Of a stretch of DNA of 64,000 bases, positions 3,451 to 49,598 are shown in pieces; the stretch's first letter is position 1; each line of letters starts with the position of its first letter. Below the pieces are notes generated by a model. The model had not been told where the DNA came from. It saw nothing but the letters and a program-made list of their open reading frames with translations, and did not search any database. The stretch lies in the IMG/VR virus record IMGVR_UViG_3300025030_000054, positions 1 through 64,000 of that record; one strand, written 5' to 3'. The position numbers and the translations under genes were made by a program. Source of the DNA: a virus.

Positions 3451-3479
3451 TTGACAAAACCAAGATCTTGTGTTATAAT
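3451..3479 (+). promoter_or_regulatory. Consensus sigma-70 promoter, rightward
   Basis: TTGACA (3451-3456), 17-base spacer, TATAAT (3474-3479). The first transcribed bases, AAGTCGAGCGTCAAGCGAAG, are repeated after the antisense promoter at 18920. Confidence 0.88.
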
Positions 3480-3683
3480 AAGTCGAGCGTCAAGCGAAGA
3501 CTACCTATAGACTCTAAGGTTTGCTTTAAAGATTATCCTAATCCCTACCGTACCTTCTATAAACCCACCCAATAAAATTAACTAATTATTATTTGTAGTA
3601 ATAAATATTCCTATGGGCGAGTATATAGTTTAGTATAACGCACTTTGTGTGCTTTAACTCCGCAACATAAAGGAACCTTATCA
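3480..3683 (+). other. About 200-base leader between promoter and GIY-YIG gene
   Basis: No convincing gene. It begins with the shared leader (AGTC...GACT pairing ends, then CTACCTATAG and AAGGTTTGC), continues C-rich and G-poor (CCTAATCCCTACCGTACC), then becomes very AT-rich. A GTATATAGTTTAG stretch near 3620 weakly resembles the box seen before other homing endonucleases. Confidence 0.5.
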
Positions 3684-9656: not shown

Positions 9657-9717
9657 GGATTTAGTTTAGCTGTTTTGTGAGTTGTAGTGCTAGTAGTTTT
9701 GTGGGGATGTTTTAGGT

Positions 9718-9880
9718 AACTTGGAGAGTAGTGTTGCAGGTAATTTGGCGAGTAGTATTGTGAGTAGTGTTGCAGGTAATTTGGCGAGTAGTATGGCAAG
9801 TAATGCATTCAGTAATGTGCTAAGTAGTATGGCAAGTAGTATGGCAAGTAGTATGGCAAGTAGTGTTATAGGTAATCTTT
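9718..9880. repeat. Degenerate tandem array, unit AAGTAGTATGGC
   Basis: At least three clean 12-bp copies of AAGTAGTATGGC around 9830-9865, preceded by longer related units containing GTAGTGTTGCAGGTAATTTG. The same unit with base changes reappears in opposite orientation at 13681-13896. Confidence 0.75.
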
Positions 9881-10080
9881 AAAGCTATATAGGAAGTAGT
9901 ATTTTAAATCTTGGGTAAGTTGAGGGGTTTCTCGTTTCTCATTAAAAGAAAATAATTTGCCTCCGCCCCCACCTGGGCACATTTCCCTTGTAATCAAACA
10001 GTGTTTTAGTTTATAATATACTCCTGACGCCTCGATCCCGGACACAATATGCATATATAGATATATGGATTATCATATGT

Positions 10081-10168
10081 CTTGATCCCGACCTGTCGAG
10101 CTGGACCTTGATCCCGACCTGTCGAGCTGGACCTTGATCCCGACCTGTCGAGCTGGACCTTGATCCCG
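10081..10168. repeat. Three 26-bp direct repeats plus 10-bp partial
   Basis: Exact copies at 10081-10106, 10107-10132 and 10133-10158, then a partial copy at 10159-10168. Each unit starts CTTGATCCCGACC and ends GTCGAGCTGGAC. The GC content is far above the surrounding DNA. They are iteron-like. Confidence 0.85.
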
Positions 10169-13680: not shown

Positions 13681-13732
13681 TTGAAATCACTACTTGAAAT
13701 CACTACTTGAAATCACTACTTGAAATACTACC
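13681..13732. repeat. 13-bp tandem repeat TTGAAATCACTAC
   Basis: Three exact copies and one diverged copy. Read on the other strand the unit is AAGTAGTGATTTC in circular permutation, related to the 9.8-kb array. Confidence 0.8.
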
Positions 13733-13782
13733 CTAAAATCACTTGAATAATTACCTAAAATATTATCTGTTAGACTGTTAGT

Positions 13783-13896
13783 TATATTACTTGGAATATT
13801 ACTTGGAATATTACTTGGAATATTACTTGGAATATTACTTGGAATATTACTTGGAATATTACTTGGAAGATTACTTGGAAGATTACTTGGAAAACA
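13783..13896. repeat. 12-bp tandem repeat, about nine copies of ATTACTTGGAAT
   Basis: Nine ACTTGGAA units at exact 12-base spacing (13789, 13801 ... 13885), the last two with a single change. On the opposite strand this is AAGTAATATTCC, i.e. the 9.8-kb unit AAGTAGTATGGC with a few substitutions and reversed orientation. Confidence 0.85.
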
Positions 13897-14372: not shown

Positions 14373-14387
14373 TTGGTTAGCTGACTT

Positions 14388-14422
14388 AAACAACTATTTA
14401 GCTCCGCTACATAATGTTTTAA
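14388..14422. repeat. 35-bp direct repeat, first copy (second at 14553-14587)
   Basis: A stretch beginning TAAACAACTATTTAGC and ending CATAATGTTTTAA recurs exactly 165 bases later. The duplication spans the small ORF at 14505 and suggests local tandem duplication of a gene start region. Confidence 0.8.
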
Positions 14423-14504: not shown

Positions 14505-14579
14505 ATGAAAAATTCCCACATTGTTTCTAGTTTTACCATCTCTGTATTACCTAAACAACTATTTAGCTCCGCTACATAA
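14505..14579 (+). CDS. Possible 24-aa leader peptide
   Basis: ATG at 14505 preceded by AAGGAGG, ending TAA at 14577-14579 inside the second copy of the 35-bp repeat. It reads MKNSHIVSSFTISVLPKQ. Either a truncated gene whose tail was replaced by the duplication, or a regulatory micro-ORF. Confidence 0.35.
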   Translation: MKNSHIVSSFTISVLPKQLFSSAT

Positions 14580-14612
14580 TGTTTTAAGCAACTCATCAAA
14601 ATTCATAAAATA

Positions 14613-16256: not shown

Positions 16257-16268
16257 ATGCGCAAATAA
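16257..16268 (+). other. Three-codon minigene ATG CGC AAA TAA with full ribosome binding site
   Basis: AAAGGAGGT stands five bases ahead of ATG CGC AAA TAA. No longer frame follows. Either a relic of a lost gene or a functional minigene like the bar minigenes of phage lambda. Confidence 0.35.
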
Positions 16269-16293
16269 TCTAAAAACAAATCAAGAAGAGATT

Positions 16294-16412
16294 TTGGGCA
16301 CTACCTAACGTGAATGCTAAGTGCTCACTATCAGCAACCTAGAGAATTGGCTCTAGGATTGCTTAGAAAACTCAACTTTAGATTATTAGAAGTAGAGTCT
16401 TGTAAGCAATTC
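16294..16412 (+). ncRNA. Structured RNA element E1
   Basis: Non-coding. Three hairpins: GGGCACT with AGTGCTC (16296-16327, one wobble), CCTAGAG with CTCTAGG (16338-16357), and ATTGCTTA with TAAGCAAT (16358-16365 with 16403-16410). It shares TAGGATTGCTTAG and a following ACTTTAG with elements E2 and E4, though it is the most diverged copy. Confidence 0.45.
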
Positions 16413-16435
16413 TAAAACCTTTAAAGGATAGCACT

Positions 16436-16645
16436 GTGAACACTAAAATAAAAGACAAAATAGAAGAACTTCTAACAACTATCAGAGGAACTGATTCTGG
16501 TAAATTTAATAATATGATATACCTAGGGAAAGGTTTTTCTAAACAGAACCTTGACGATGCTTTGGAAGAAATTAAGGAAATGCTTAGTCATAACTTAGCG
16601 CGCACTGAGGACCAAGCCAGGATTATCAATCAGAAATGCCTCTAA
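16436..16645 (+). CDS. Small helical hypothetical protein
   Basis: 69 aa from GTG at 16436 with AAAGGA upstream. Charged helices (KIKDKIEELLTTIRG, LDDALEEIKEMLSH). Its stop codon lies inside the first arm of RNA element E2. Confidence 0.7.
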   Translation: MNTKIKDKIEELLTTIRGTDSGKFNNMIYLGKGFSKQNLDDALEEIKEMLSHNLARTEDQARIINQKCL

Positions 16646-16735
16646 AACGAACGAGGATTGCCTGTAGAGGGACTTTAGAGGCTACCCTATAGGATGGTAT
16701 GGGTTATTGATAAAGTGGCTTTAAAACCACTAAAA
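16639..16735 (+). ncRNA. Structured RNA element E2 (ACGAGGAT hairpin)
   Basis: CCTCTA (16639-16644) pairs with TAGAGG (16665-16670) around a loop with AACGAACGAGGATTGCC. A second structure pairs GACTTTA with TAAAGTG (ends about 16671 and 16718), enclosing ACCC/GGGT. A 31-base stretch recurs with one mismatch in E4 at 49330 on the other strand, and the fold recurs in E3 with compensating changes. Confidence 0.55.
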
Positions 16736-16760
16736 TTGACACAAATAAGGAGAAGTGGCT

Positions 16761-16901
16761 ATGAGAAAGCACGCACTAATAATAACCGTAAGCAATTGCT
16801 ACAAAGCTTTGGACAGCGAGTTTTTAGTTTTAGATTTGGAAACAAATTTTAGCTGGGTTGATGCTTGCAACCTTTCAGCAGTTGAGTGGTTTTACAACTA
16901 A
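16761..16901 (+). CDS. 46-aa hypothetical protein
   Basis: ATG at 16761 after AAGGAG. MRKHALIITVSNCYKALDS then FLVLDLETNFSWVDACN; two strands and a helix. Unknown. Confidence 0.65.
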   Translation: MRKHALIITVSNCYKALDSEFLVLDLETNFSWVDACNLSAVEWFYN

Positions 16902-16915
16902 ACAAGGAGACTGCC

Positions 16916-17011
16916 ATGAGTGACTCGGTTGCGTGGTGTATCGTAGGAGTACTAACTGTATTTGATGCTGTAGTGGCGTACATCTTGGTAAAGCCGCTAT
17001 TCAAGAAATAA
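16916..17011 (+). CDS. 31-aa single-span membrane peptide
   Basis: ATG at 16916 after AAGGAG. Hydrophobic residues 4-25 (SVAWCIVGVLTVFDAVVAY) and a basic tail (KPLFKK) give a clear inside-positive membrane anchor. Confidence 0.65.
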   Translation: MSDSVAWCIVGVLTVFDAVVAYILVKPLFKK

Positions 17012-17036
17012 CCACCATCATTCTCCTTCACAAATA

Positions 17037-17131
17037 GCCCTAGAACGCACGAGGATCGTCTCTAGGGCCACTTTAAAGCCTCCCCCATACCTTCCTATAG
17101 GGTAATCTTTAAAGTGGCCTCAGAAGCCATA
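17037..17131 (+). ncRNA. Structured RNA element E3 (ACGAGGAT hairpin)
   Basis: First hairpin: perfect 8-bp stem GCCCTAGA (17037-17044) with TCTAGGGC (17061-17068), loop containing CACGAGGATCGTC. Second: perfect 13-bp stem GGCCACTTTAAAG (17066-17078) with CTTTAAAGTGGCC (17107-17119), enclosing CTCCCCCATACC. The stem sequences differ from E2 but pairing is kept, as expected for a functional RNA. Confidence 0.6.
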
Positions 17132-18919: not shown

Positions 18920-18948
18920 ATTATACCACAAGAATCCACTTTTGTCAA
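18920..18948 (-). promoter_or_regulatory. Consensus sigma-70 promoter, antisense to surrounding genes
   Basis: Minus strand TTGACA (18948-18943), 17-base spacer, TATAAT (18925-18920). A perfect consensus, yet every neighbouring gene lies on the plus strand. Confidence 0.85.
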
Positions 18949-20021: not shown

Positions 20022-20613
20022 CTGAAATATGAGGTATAATGCTAATTATTTAGAGTAGATTGGCATTATATCTAATATTTTCGCTGTAAAATAGTTAGGT
20101 ATTGGTTCTTCTTTGAAGAGCGCCTAACGAACTGTCTTACAAATTGACAGTTGCTGCGCTTCCATGACCACAGAGGGCACTACAAAATGTTTTTTACCCA
20201 CACTTCCTACATTTGCACCTGTCTTTCTTCAATCCTCGTAGCACAATCCGCAACAAATCTTTCACATCTCTTAGCAACAACTCTCAAAATCACTCTCCGA
20301 ATCACAGAACAAATCCCCCAAAAGTACTTTCAAAATCTCCCCTCTAGGCATTTAATCAACAACCTCACCAGCTAATTCCCAAACTGTTTTCAAAATCAAA
20401 CGTAGTTATATTATGTATTGAGAGTAATTTCAATACTTTAGGGATACTTTTGTCTTAAATCTGGAAAATGGTAATTACCAATTTACTTGGAGTATGCACT
20501 TTTGCGTCTACTTTCCATGAATTTATAAAATAGTGTTTTAAAATTGATCTAACCAATTACCTTAAATGAAGGACCAACGCTATCGGAAAAACCGATACTA
20601 CAAGGAGTCTACC
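20022..20613 (+). other. About 590-base region, structured and C-rich, mostly non-coding
   Basis: Hairpins: GTTAGG with CCTAAC (20094-20128) enclosing TCTTC/GAAGA; ACTGTC with GACAGT (20131-20151); TATCGG with CCGATA just before the 20614 gene. A frame at 20187-20375 (62 aa, GAGGG upstream) has CAAAATC-type repetition and Ser/Thr/Leu-rich composition, so I treat it as doubtful. The stretch 20200-20390 is C-rich on the plus strand, like the tails of the antisense RNAs. Confidence 0.5.
20470..20479. promoter_or_regulatory. GGTAATTACC palindrome, copy 14
   Basis: Context AATGGTAATTACCAATTTAC, the reversed-flank form also seen at 10414. Confidence 0.68.
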
Positions 20614-22318: not shown

Positions 22319-23683
22319 ATGTCCACAAAAGCACTTGAAATATGCCTAGAAGTTCACAAACAAAACGGAACTGCCTACATAACCGGAGGGGCTGTTAGAG
22401 ATATGCTTTTGGGGTGGCCTTGCAATGATGTAGACCTTGAAGTGTTCGGAATTTCTCAGGAAACTCTGGAGACTATTTTGAACACTGTCTGTTCTAAGGT
22501 AGATCTTGTAGGCAAATCTTACGGAATTTACAAGGCAGATGGTATTGACGTGGGATTTCCTCGTAGAGACAGAACACATGGAAAAGGGGCTGACGTTGAA
22601 ATTGATCCTTACATGTCAGTTGAAGAAGCTGCTTTGCGGAGAGATCTTACAGTAAATTCCATGTATTTCAACCCGATAACTATGGATATAATTGATCCTT
22701 TTGGTGGTAGGGTAGATTTACAGAGACAACTTGTAGGTATGGTTTCTTATGACACTTTCAACGAAGACCCATTGAGGCCAATTAGAGCAGCTAGGTTTTG
22801 TGCTACTTTGGGTTTATTTCTACACGGTGATACTTTAACGGCTTGCCAAACTGCTGATCGAAACAAAATACACAACTTACCCAAAGAACGTATTTTCGGT
22901 GAACTTGAAAAAGTACTGATGGAAGCAGAATATCCTTCAGTATTCTTCGAAGAACTTGATGACATGGATTTGACTAAAATTCTGTTTCCTGAGTTGCAGC
23001 TAACCAAGCAAATAGAACAAGGCAAATGTTACCACCCGGAAGGCTCTGTTTATGCACATTCACTCTTAGCCCTCGATGTACTACCAATAAAAGAAAGATC
23101 CTTAGATGTTTTATTAGCAATCCTATTTCATGACCTCGGCAAAGCATCTGTAGAAACCGAGGTAAGTGGCGATAAGATCAGTTTTAAAGGTCACGCAGAA
23201 GATCTTACCTTAGCTACCGCTGCAATGGCTAGATTGACGGATGATAAAGAGCTGACCGAAAGTGTGCTTAACCTAATCAAATACCACATGCACCCTTACC
23301 AGTTCAAGAACGGAGTGACTAAAAAGCGGATTAGAAGGTTAGCATCGAAAGTTGATGTTAGAAAACTTATGAAAGTTCACAAAGCAGATCAAAAAGGTAG
23401 GGAATATTCAGAGGAGAATAATAAATATGTCAAAAGAAACAATGAAGTTGCTGCTGAAATTATGGCCGTATTTGAAGAGATTGAAGGAGAAATCGTGCCT
23501 ATTATGCAAGGCAGACACCTCATCGAAGCAGGGTGGGTGCCAGGAAAACATTTCGGCTACATTCTTGCGCAGCTTTACGAGTACCAGTTAGACGGCGAAT
23601 TGGTTGATGTTGCTAGTGGCATGGAACTAGCTCATACGTTGTTTGGCGGGGTGAAGAAATCAACAGTTGTTAAAGGAGCCTGA
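22319..23683 (+). CDS. cca: tRNA nucleotidyltransferase (CCA-adding enzyme) with HD domain
   Basis: 454 aa. It builds or repairs the 3' CCA end of tRNAs using CTP and ATP. The head has the nucleotidyltransferase signature GGAVRD (23-28) and DVDLEV with the metal-binding aspartates (37, 39). RRDLTVNSMYFNP and the ERxxGEL-type motif (KERIFGELEKVL) follow. A C-terminal HD phosphohydrolase domain (HDLGK at about 271) resembles the E. coli-type enzyme. All catalytic residues seem intact. It sits beside an RNA ligase and glutamyl-tRNA synthetase, consistent with tRNA repair during infection. AAGGAG precedes the ATG. Confidence 0.93.
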   Translation: MSTKALEICLEVHKQNGTAYITGGAVRDMLLGWPCNDVDLEVFGISQETLETILNTVCSKVDLVGKSYGIYKADGIDVGFPRRDRTHGKGADVEIDPYMSVEEAALRRDLTVNSMYFNPITMDIIDPFGGRVDLQRQLVGMVSYDTFNEDPLRPIRAARFCATLGLFLHGDTLTACQTADRNKIHNLPKERIFGELEKVLMEAEYPSVFFEELDDMDLTKILFPELQLTKQIEQGKCYHPEGSVYAHSLLALDVLPIKERSLDVLLAILFHDLGKASVETEVSGDKISFKGHAEDLTLATAAMARLTDDKELTESVLNLIKYHMHPYQFKNGVTKKRIRRLASKVDVRKLMKVHKADQKGREYSEENNKYVKRNNEVAAEIMAVFEEIEGEIVPIMQGRHLIEAGWVPGKHFGYILAQLYEYQLDGELVDVASGMELAHTLFGGVKKSTVVKGA

Positions 23684-27064: not shown

Positions 27065-27074
27065 TGATGGTTGG

Positions 27075-27143
27075 TAGGTAGTTGAAAGTGTAGTTGATAG
27101 GTAGTTGAAAGTGTAGTTGATAGGTAGTTGAAAGTGTAGTTGA
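27075..27143. repeat. Three exact 23-bp tandem repeats
   Basis: Units at 27075-27097, 27098-27120 and 27121-27143, each TAGGTAGTTGAAAG then TGTAGTTGA. Immediately after the stop of the 366-aa gene and just before a large hairpin. Confidence 0.85.
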
Positions 27144-27153
27144 AAGGATAAGG

Positions 27154-28291: not shown

Positions 28292-29665
28292 ATGGAGAAA
28301 GGATTCGTAAGAACTGCGCCCAGCCCTACTGGACGACCTACGTTAGGTACTTCTAGAACGGCGATTTACAACTTTCTACATGCAAGACAGCAAGGTATGG
28401 GGTATTTAACCAGGCTAGAGGACAGTGATCCAGTACGCTCTAAGCAAGAATTCGCTGACGATATTATAGAAGGACTTGCGTGGCTTGGGATAGTATCTGA
28501 CGTGCCAATCATAAAACAATCTGAGCGTGGAGATATATATGCAAAATACGTGGATCAGTTGTTAGCCGAAGGTAAAGCATACCGGTGTTACTGTTCGGCT
28601 GAGAAGTTAGAAGCGGATCGGGAGAGGAAACTAGCGGCAAAAGAGAAGCCTATTTACGACAGAACTTGCTTAGGGCTTGGTGAGCAGCCGGGCAAGCCTT
28701 TTACGGTGAGGCTGAAGGTGGATACCTACGGCGCTGTGACTTTTCGGGATGCTGTGTACAAAAGGGTGAATGTGAGGAAGGCAGAAATTGGAGATTTTAT
28801 TGTTCAAAGAAGTGATGGCACAGTAGGGTACCTTCTATCTAACGTAATTGACGATGCTTTGCAAAATGTTACTATGGTTATAAGAGGCCGCGATGGAATT
28901 AGTAACGCTCCCGCACAAATTTTATTGTATGAGGCTCTCGGTTTTCCAGTACCTAGCTACGCCCACGCCGCCTTTATATTAAACGAAAAAGGTCAGAAAC
29001 TTTCCAAGAGGAACGGAGATGCCTCACTATTGGACTACCGCGATAAAGGTTACTTGCCAGAAGCTATGTTCAACGCCCTCGCAAGAATAGGAGCAAGTTT
29101 CGGGGATAGGGAACTGTTAAGTGTAAAGGAGATGGTAGAGCTATTTGACCTAAAAAATCTTAGTAAATCCGATGGCGTTTTCGACCCTCAAAAGCTTCTT
29201 AACATCAACAAGCACTGGATCAAAACCATTGAACCAGAAAGATTACAAACACTATTAACCCCATTCCTTCTTAAAGAACAAATAACCGAAGAACAAATAT
29301 CCGAATTTAATAAAGTATCTTCAGTAAGTAAGGCAATCCAAACGCTACAAACTCGCTCGGCCACCCTTGTAGAAATGGCTCAAAAGGCTAAATTCTACTT
29401 CATACGGCCAGCCTATTCGTCCATCAGTTTAACAGGATTTCAAAAGGCAATTTTACAGTCATTCATAGACAACCTAACCAACAACAACTCAATAGACGAA
29501 GCCATAGAAGAAACCTGTAAGCAAGCTAACTGCACGATAAAGGAACTTGGGCCGCCGGTTAGATTATCCCTCTCAGGCTCTCTTGCAGCACCCGGAATAG
29601 TAGAAATCATTGAAGTTCTGGGGACCAAAGAAACTATTGAAAGGATTAAATTGGTAATTACCTAA
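28292..29665 (+). CDS. gltX: Glutamyl-tRNA synthetase, altered HIGH motif
   Basis: 457 aa, nearly full bacterial length. It would charge tRNA-Glu with glutamate. Class I catalytic core: APSPTGRPTLGTSRTA (residues 9-24), where normal enzymes read LHIG or LHVG, so the first HIGH histidine is Thr here. Zn-site cysteines CYC (99, 101) and C126 are kept. VIRGRDGISNAP replaces the common RGxDH. The KMSKS-type loop KLSKR (236-240) is intact, including the Ser that HipA kinase phosphorylates in E. coli GltX. The C-terminal anticodon-binding region is present. A complete GltX is rare in phages. The stop codon is supplied by a palindrome copy (KLVIT-stop). AAAGGAG precedes the ATG. Confidence 0.92.
   Translation: MEKGFVRTAPSPTGRPTLGTSRTAIYNFLHARQQGMGYLTRLEDSDPVRSKQEFADDIIEGLAWLGIVSDVPIIKQSERGDIYAKYVDQLLAEGKAYRCYCSAEKLEADRERKLAAKEKPIYDRTCLGLGEQPGKPFTVRLKVDTYGAVTFRDAVYKRVNVRKAEIGDFIVQRSDGTVGYLLSNVIDDALQNVTMVIRGRDGISNAPAQILLYEALGFPVPSYAHAAFILNEKGQKLSKRNGDASLLDYRDKGYLPEAMFNALARIGASFGDRELLSVKEMVELFDLKNLSKSDGVFDPQKLLNINKHWIKTIEPERLQTLLTPFLLKEQITEEQISEFNKVSSVSKAIQTLQTRSATLVEMAQKAKFYFIRPAYSSISLTGFQKAILQSFIDNLTNNNSIDEAIEETCKQANCTIKELGPPVRLSLSGSLAAPGIVEIIEVLGTKETIERIKLVIT
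29653..29662. promoter_or_regulatory. GGTAATTACC palindrome, copy 19
   Basis: Overlaps the last codons of gltX (TTG GTA ATT ACC TAA). Confidence 0.68.
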
Positions 29666-47684: not shown

Positions 47685-47989
47685 AAATGCAATCTACCAG
47701 AGAAAAATACTTAGTAACTAAAATGGGAATCCAATACAAACACTGCACAGATAACTACGTATTTACTGGTCAGGGTATGTGGACCGAAGGAGAGTATTTT
47801 TACAAACTATTTAAATGGGCACAGAACAGTTCTTGGTGGGGTTATTTGAAAAGGGATTATATAGGCGACGAGGGGGATGGTATTTTAGGCCCGCTTTACT
47901 ATCCTATTGACGAATCCTACATAGACGCTGAGATGCTGGCTAATGCAATCTACTCCTATTTTCTTAAGAAAGAGGAGGTTCCATTTTGA
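47681..47989 (+). CDS. Hypothetical protein, 102 aa
   Basis: Aromatic-rich (YVFTGQGMWTEGEYFYKLFKW, NSSWWGYLKRDY). Overlaps neighbours at both ends (ATGA before, TTGA after). Unknown. Confidence 0.75.
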   Translation: MKMQSTREKYLVTKMGIQYKHCTDNYVFTGQGMWTEGEYFYKLFKWAQNSSWWGYLKRDYIGDEGDGILGPLYYPIDESYIDAEMLANAIYSYFLKKEEVPF

Positions 47990-49302
47990 TAGAGGTTAGG
48001 CATGTCGCTCGCGTCCAACTACCTGAAGATGAAAATGTAAAAGCCCTGATTTTAAACCTATTTGCGTACACTTCCAGAAATGGAGAATCTTTTCACAACT
48101 ACTCTTACAAAGATGGAGTAGCATATTTTCCCCCTTGTCTTCCAAAATTAGAGGTAGTTGCTAGTCTGTTAAATGAAACGGTAGTGGATAACAGGAGCCA
48201 TGGGCAGACTATATCCTCGCCTTTCATACTAAATCCAGAATTCACTTTAAGGGATTATCAAGTTGAACCTGCCAGACAACTTTTCGACGACACAAGAGAT
48301 AATAAATCAGCAACTTTAAGTGCAGGCTGTGGAACTGGAAAAACTATAGTGGTATCTCACGCGGCTGGTCGCTTAAATAAGAAGATCCTAGGAATTTTAG
48401 ATCAGTCGAACTTATTCCAAAATTGGGCGATTGCTTTTGATCTTATCTACGGCAAAAAAATTCAGCAACTAAAATCAACGGACATTGTATTCTCAGACGT
48501 ATGCATAACAACGTTTCAGATGCTACACAGGAACCCTGAGTTACTTTCTAGGATTAGGAAAGAATTCGGCTGTCTAATTTTAGATGAGTGCCATGTTGTA
48601 AAGGCTACTACCTTCAAACAAGTTTTATCCAGACTAGATACGCAATACCGTGTAGCATGTACGGCCACTTTCTTCAACAAAAACCTACCTTTAGGGATTC
48701 TTGAGGACTGGCTTGCTCCGGTGTCTGTTAAGATGGTAGATCAATATGCCTTAACTCCAGAGATACGTTGGATAGACACAGGAGTCATTTGGTCTTCAGA
48801 AGAACCTATGGACTATGCTTCCTACGTTCTTCCAGCACTTGCAGCAGATGCCAAAAGAAACGCTGTTATATTTAGTATACTAAAACAATGCCTAGAAGAG
48901 AAACGTAGAACTATAGTTTGCTGCATCACAGTAAAACAGGCTAACTTTCTACATGAGATTATGGTCAAATCTGGCGCACGATCTACCGTGTACACTGGAA
49001 GTACTACTGCTAAGAGGGACTTGGAAGTCAAAACTAAAATGAATTCTGGAGAGTTAGACTTCATTTTTGCTTCCATGAAATTTAATAAGGGAACAGATAT
49101 AGATACAGCGGATTGCATGGTTTTGGTAAGACCCAACAACAATCTTAAAGACACTCAACAATTAACTGGGCGAGTAGTTCGGAAGGTTGAAGGGAAACCA
49201 AAGCCCATAGTTTATGATTTTGCTGATGTAGGTTACTTGGCAGAAATCTTCGTAAGAAACCGTAAAAAGTTCTATAGGAGCCTTAACTACGAAGAAGGGT
49301 AG
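47986..49302 (+). CDS. SF2 DNA/RNA helicase
   Basis: 438 aa from TTG at 47986 (GAGGAGG; TTGA overlap). Helicase motifs: Q-region RDYQVEPA, Walker A AGCGTGKT (about 112-119), Walker B LDECH (about 199-203), motif III CTATF, then motif V FNKGTDIDTAD and motif VI QLTGRVVRK. It is a UvsW/RecG-like single-chain SF2 enzyme (uncertain subclass), probably for replication restart or recombination. Confidence 0.9.
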   Translation: MIEVRHVARVQLPEDENVKALILNLFAYTSRNGESFHNYSYKDGVAYFPPCLPKLEVVASLLNETVVDNRSHGQTISSPFILNPEFTLRDYQVEPARQLFDDTRDNKSATLSAGCGTGKTIVVSHAAGRLNKKILGILDQSNLFQNWAIAFDLIYGKKIQQLKSTDIVFSDVCITTFQMLHRNPELLSRIRKEFGCLILDECHVVKATTFKQVLSRLDTQYRVACTATFFNKNLPLGILEDWLAPVSVKMVDQYALTPEIRWIDTGVIWSSEEPMDYASYVLPALAADAKRNAVIFSILKQCLEEKRRTIVCCITVKQANFLHEIMVKSGARSTVYTGSTTAKRDLEVKTKMNSGELDFIFASMKFNKGTDIDTADCMVLVRPNNNLKDTQQLTGRVVRKVEGKPKPIVYDFADVGYLAEIFVRNRKKFYRSLNYEEG

Positions 49303-49329
49303 GCTAGGGTATGGGGGAGTTAAAAAGTC

Positions 49330-49361
49330 CCTCTACAAGCAATCCTCGTTCGTTTTAGAGG
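49330..49361 (-). ncRNA. Structured RNA element E4 (ACGAGGAT hairpin, inverted)
   Basis: On the minus strand: CCTCTA pairs with TAGAGG around AACGAACGAGGATTGCTTG, followed by GACTTTTTAACTCCCCCATACCC. It matches E2 over 31 bases with one mismatch and shares the CTCCCCCATACC stretch with E3. It lies after the helicase gene, reversed with respect to it. Confidence 0.5.
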
Positions 49362-49394
49362 TGGTTGTGGAGGATAATATGGAGGAGTTTTATT

Positions 49395-49598
49395 ATGAGA
49401 AATATTGTGACTGAAGAAGAGGCAGCTACGAAACGGTGCCCTCAACTCATGGGTAGGTCTGATCTTGTAAATCGGTATTGCAAAGGATCTGACTGCATGG
49501 CTTGGCGGTGGCATTCTGAGGAGACACTAGAGAAGGGCTATGGAGAGAAAACTGTGGTACTAAAATATGGGTACTGTGGTAAGGTGCCTTTAACATGA
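49395..49598 (+). CDS. Small conserved Cys protein (CMAWRW family)
   Basis: 67 aa from ATG at 49395 after GGAGGAG. KRCPQLMG then CKGSDCMAWRW and a last YCGKV form the small conserved phage family with a CxGSxCMAWRW core. Probably a zinc-binding protein; the role is unknown. Confidence 0.78.
   Translation: MRNIVTEEEAATKRCPQLMGRSDLVNRYCKGSDCMAWRWHSEETLEKGYGEKTVVLKYGYCGKVPLT

Follow-up and report, generated by a model that had tools for sequence, protein, structure and literature searches.

Three copies of a 76-nt element, here called E2, E3 and E4, recur in the genome of an uncultured phage as duplicated structured elements; the family they form is real, small and restricted to this lineage. 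Our preferred reading, which we hold tentatively, is that this lineage-restricted duplicated element acts through an RNA hairpin, and that at E4 it is an element of an untranslated region. The window analysed spans the initial 64 kb of an uncultured virus record of 105,687 bp, and its genes include those for a terminase, a PhoH-like protein, a CCA-adding enzyme, a DnaB-like helicase, a primase and a DNA polymerase. The CCA-adding enzyme and a full glutamyl-tRNA synthetase-like protein with an anticodon-binding domain are encoded at 22319-23683 and 28292-29665, and despite these two proteins no tRNA genes were found in the window. Tandem repeats with 12-, 26-, 13/12- and 23-nt units occupy gene-poor stretches (9700-9900, 10081-10168, 13681-13890 and 27070-27147), and one intergenic stretch, AACTATTTAGCTCCGCTACATAATGTTTTAA, is duplicated (14387-14420 and 14552-14585). 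The nearest relatives found were two contigs from one metagenome, G001 and G002; isolate phages reached protein identities of only ~25%.

Three ungapped copies and an unrelated hairpin cluster

The copies lie at 16612-16687 (E2, minus strand), 17010-17085 (E3, minus strand) and 49313-49388 (E4, plus strand), on the strand that we favour below; E3 had previously been read on the plus strand. E2, located by covariance model and ungapped alignment, lies between genes and overlaps the final codons and stop codon of a plus-strand ORF (16436-16645), and E4 lies between the helicase gene (47986-49302) and an ORF starting at 49395. All 76 nt aligned without a single indel, with ungapped identities of 53/76 (E2-E4), 51/76 (E2-E3) and 49/76 (E3-E4), compared with 39/76 at the best unrelated position when the element was set against every window position. 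The near-identity of E2 and E4, claimed earlier over 31 bases, was confirmed: they are inverted copies across 55 nt at 85%, with 37 of 38 core positions equal (BLAST within the record, 2.8e-13). At E3 both strands are unusually structured.

Allowing up to three mismatches, the pattern CTCTANAACGNACGAGGATYG occurred only at E2, E3 and E4 in the whole record. The bare motif ACGAGGATYG, allowed one mismatch, was no rarer than chance (5 found v 3.6 expected); significance belongs to the extended element only, not to this motif. A fourth exact ACGAGGATTG, at 20230 on the minus strand, is without a stem and was attributed to chance. G001 and G002, the sole relatives found, both retain E4 at this locus in the helicase region, 49313-49388 of the window. 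Pattern scans of IMG/VR gave real matches in these two contigs only; the matches L006 and L008 were chance occurrences within coding sequence, and a looser pattern added 20 further matches, all without a matching stem. A single isolated match in the GTDB genomes (Pseudarthrobacter, L055) was taken as chance, and INPHARED left the region unmatched, with no useful match to E2 or E3. Searches through PhoH and its neighbouring ORF found no relatives spanning E2/E3, and the helicase alignment added none. No relatives were found outside this phage lineage.

The initial annotation had proposed four family members and suggested a covariance model built from the copies as a check. Such a model recovered E2-E4 (its high scores for the sequences it was trained on follow from how it was built) and the two E4 orthologs, with nothing convincing beyond these; E1 was not detected at E ≤ 10. 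E1 (16294-16440, plus strand) is a series of strong hairpins that is not homologous to E2-E4. Its loop, AATTGG, is unlike that of the family, and its AGGATTG sits in a stem arm. The best 40-mer similarity of E1 was at background level against E2 and E4 and slightly above background against E3 (24/40 matches, where 60 random pieces reached at most 22). E1 forms a strong, unusually stable hairpin on both strands and is treated here as an unrelated hairpin cluster, not a family member. Shortly before it, a three-codon ORF, ATGCGCAAATAA, with a good ribosome-binding site (16258-16269) could encode a leader peptide. Rfam searches at gathering and relaxed thresholds gave no family match in the window at gathering score; below threshold there were only microRNA-type and intron matches near E1/E3, and none at E4.

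For E2, E3 and E4 the shared stem, loop and [C/G]ACTTT of the original description were borne out. On the strand first proposed, the conserved loop reads AACG[A/C]ACGAGGAT[T/C]G, followed by [C/G]ACTTT, and the loop core ATCCTCGT/ACGAGGAT is invariant across copies. The main stem of E3, GCCCTAGA/TCTAGGGC (around 17037-17068), extends on the minus strand to ~14 bp with two G-U pairs. The flank to the left of the elements as first delimited is also conserved (on the favoured strand, TTGTGAAGGAGAAT in E3 and TTGTGGAGGATAAT in E4). A second long stem, hairpin B, had been described for both E2 and E3; it is perfect in E3, weaker in E2 and essentially absent in E4, where the CCCCCATACC half alone exists. 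In E3 (17064-17122, plus strand) it is a 13-bp stem, GGCCACTTTAAAG/CTTTAAAGTGGCC, enclosing CCCCCATACCTTCCTATAGGG, and folds at -26.0 kcal/mol on the plus strand and -31.7 kcal/mol on the minus strand. The loop module of hairpin B in E2 (16672-16716, plus strand) is the inverse of that in E3: positions 16672-16703 are the reverse complement of 17084-17115 at 88%. E2 therefore carries the CCCCATACC module of E3 turned around, not in the same sense.

Pairing, constraint and choice of strand

The pairing is probably under selection. On the favoured strand, in-register pairing covers 97.5% of cells; slid registers reach no more than 62.5%. The observed pairing values were reached by 18 of 500 shuffles. 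In register, the main stem has two doubly changed pairs that set E3 apart from the others (C-G to G-C and U-A to C-G), and the G002 ortholog adds one further double change, from A-U to G-C, within its inner helix. Thus, 3 of 10 pairs are doubly changed, which is suggestive but not significant because there are only four distinct sequences (the three copies and the G002 ortholog). The covariation proposed earlier was right in direction, with fewer changes than its two stem spellings suggest.

G002 differs from the window at four core positions, all in the inner helix and all pair-preserving on the favoured strand. Across the element, the difference is 8/76 sites, close to the rate at four-fold sites in the helicase (24/176), so the G002 comparison does not establish strong constraint. 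Over ~2 kb around E4, from ~49.1 kb to past 51 kb, G001 and the window are identical, although most of the upstream helicase differs by ~7%; this identity looks like recent exchange and is therefore uninformative on selection. A coding explanation was considered for a 15-codon ORF (MGELKSPSTSNPRSF*) on the E4 strand, which terminates within the stem and is also present in G002; since early stops interrupt this ORF in E2 and E3, it cannot account for the family. The string GTTTTAGAG in E4 (plus strand) resembles the start of a type II CRISPR repeat, and was set aside since it is not kept in E3 or G002.

When the same structure was counted on both strands, 35 of 40 cells (87.5%) paired on the strand of the initial annotation and 39 of 40 on its opposite. 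The difference arises because a transition that yields G-U on one strand yields A-C on its complement. All four sequences also folded better on the favoured strand than on the annotated one (E3, -23.8 v -15.3 kcal/mol; E4, -20.2 v -13.4; G002 ortholog, -16.8 v -9.9; E2, -10.7 v -8.1). By this asymmetry and these energies the strand originally implied is probably wrong, and the functional strand is probably its opposite, plus at E4 and minus at E2/E3. This is a lean, not proof: there are few sequences, they are related to one another, and transitions are frequent in any case.

The choice of strand bears directly on the suggestion that the elements are a CsrA/RsmA sponge or phage-specific small RNAs, which we consider very improbable. 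A GGA is exposed in the hairpin loop, as in CsrA/RsmA-binding hairpins of the CsrB/RsmZ type, on the annotated strand only, the one that pairs and folds worse; on the favoured strand the loop reads AAUCCUC and the GGA motif therefore disappears. The CsrA SELEX consensus is RUACARGGAUGU (PMC7652899), and the ACA before GGA is absent from the loop AACG[A/C]ACGAGGAT. Unlike CsrB/RsmZ-type RNAs, which carry multiple sites per RNA, these are three single sites scattered over three separate intergenic regions in two orientations, each on a long stable stem, and no csrA gene is encoded in the phage record. Discrete small RNAs fare no better, as neither an 11-12/12 consensus promoter nor a T-run terminator was found at E2-E4. 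The same features separate the elements from the promoter early stem-loops (PeSLs) of T4-like phages, described, as cited in PMC4503421, as promoter-terminator composites: duplicated intergenic stem-loop modules scattered between phage genes are common to both, and E2-E4 are without a good promoter or T-run terminator.

The sole consensus promoter found on the minus strand of E2/E3 is at 18948, ~1.9 kb upstream. It is one of two perfect sigma-70 promoters (18948-18920 and 51379-51351, both minus strand; TTGACA-17-TATAAT with TG before the second hexamer) that oppose plus-strand gene arrays, each followed by a C-rich, G-poor, rut-like leader of ~150 nt; the second is also present in G001 and G002. 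These promoters might drive early antisense transcripts that are ended by Rho. The leaders at 3451-3545 (plus), 18976-18859 (minus) and 51351-51250 (minus) share sequence, such as TATAGACTCTAAGGTTTGC, and TTTAAAGATTA[C/T]CCTA, found in the 3451 leader, is seen again in hairpin B of E3 (minus strand, 17113-17098); a nut-like antitermination site in these leaders would be a guess. Elsewhere, the palindrome [T/A]GGTAATTACC[T/A], usually within AAATTGGTAATTACCTA, occurs at 26 places between 5290 and 51437, where 4 were expected with up to two mismatches. It lies mostly just before the ribosome-binding sites of plus-strand genes and looks like an operator or promoter-associated site.

A proposed E4 leader and rival explanations

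The strand favoured at E4 is that of the mRNA, and the element lies after the helicase stop codon and reaches into the ribosome-binding region before the ATG at 49395. A competing stem is predicted on this strand (49330-49374), in which CCUCUACAA pairs with UUGUGGAGG over 9 bp, covering a ribosome-binding GGAGG and excluding the CCUCUA/UAGAGG stem. Its predicted pair probabilities were ~0.9-1.0 in E4; for the G002 ortholog, in which A-to-G changes can be accommodated as G-U pairs, they were 0.64-0.83. The GGAGG that the stem hides is not the most favourably positioned for ATG 49395, and a better-placed GGAGGAG remains outside. With longer flanks the E4 fold was no better than shuffles (z = -0.22), and a 115-nt G002 fold gave z = +1.26. 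No credible gene was found downstream of E2 or E3 on the minus strand.

Our proposal for E4, held with low to moderate confidence, is therefore a hairpin in the untranslated region that acts in cis. E2, E3 and E4 would be copies of one ~76-nt intergenic element that spread in the lineage by duplication and inversion, with a function that depends on an intrastrand hairpin in RNA. E4 would sit untranslated within the helicase-to-ORF49395 mRNA, where its 5' arm CCUCUACAA could pair with UAGAGG in a local hairpin that leaves the ribosome-binding region free, or with UUGUGGAGG in the stem that hides GGAGG. These alternatives may set the translation or stability of the downstream gene, and E2 and E3, as inverted copies, would play at most a secondary role. 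With two mutually exclusive predicted stems, one of them over GGAGG, E4 resembles the general class of leader RNAs with competing anti-Shine-Dalgarno stems; unlike these, E4 has no ligand and no Rfam family, and its switching is only predicted.

A less likely reading is that the elements have little or no function and are small palindromic repeats spread by recombination, their arms kept complementary by hairpin-mediated inversion and gene conversion. Bacterial REP and other palindromic intergenic repeats are likewise small inverted-repeat units found between genes in both orientations; here there are three copies only, in a phage, and we know of no sequence similarity between the two. The copies in both orientations, the B loop of E2 inverted relative to E3, the further duplicated intergenic segments (such as those near 14387 and 14552) and the divergence of E4 from G002 near the four-fold-site rate would all fit such an origin. 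It accounts less well for three pairs with pair-preserving changes, a loop core identical in all copies and a 76-nt register free of indels. An orientation-independent DNA dyad, serving as the binding site of a phage protein or in replication or recombination, is improbable: the elements are near-palindromic, intergenic and in both orientations, but a protein-binding dyad keeps its arm sequence, and here arm bases change in pairs, in a compensating way, with changes that become G-U on one strand.

All copies are surrounded by plus-strand genes, so the E2/E3 and E4 mRNAs carry complementary hairpins, which might silence or process one another in trans, with pairing that could start through the loops (GAGGAUUG with CAAUCCUC). 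Between E2(+) and E4(+), 37 of 38 core bases are complementary and the predicted duplex is at -72.1 kcal/mol, and the predicted duplexes E3(+)/E4(+) and E2B(+)/E3B(+) reach -46.9 and -49.6 kcal/mol. We regard this as rather unlikely: any inverted duplication between co-oriented genes yields such complementarity, and no relative covering E2/E3 was found in which loop-loop co-change with E4 could be seen. A combined circuit, in which E4 is a two-state leader in the helicase operon and the opposite-orientation plus-strand transcripts of E2/E3 act as trans antisense, is a long shot.

The GGA-in-loop case illustrates that a motif read from one strand needs a strand check before a regulator is named. 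If the pairing is not functional, the family would neatly illustrate how phages come to carry inverted intergenic repeats. If it is functional, E2-E4 would represent an undescribed phage RNA element, and its inverted copies may amount to a compact form of self-antisense control.
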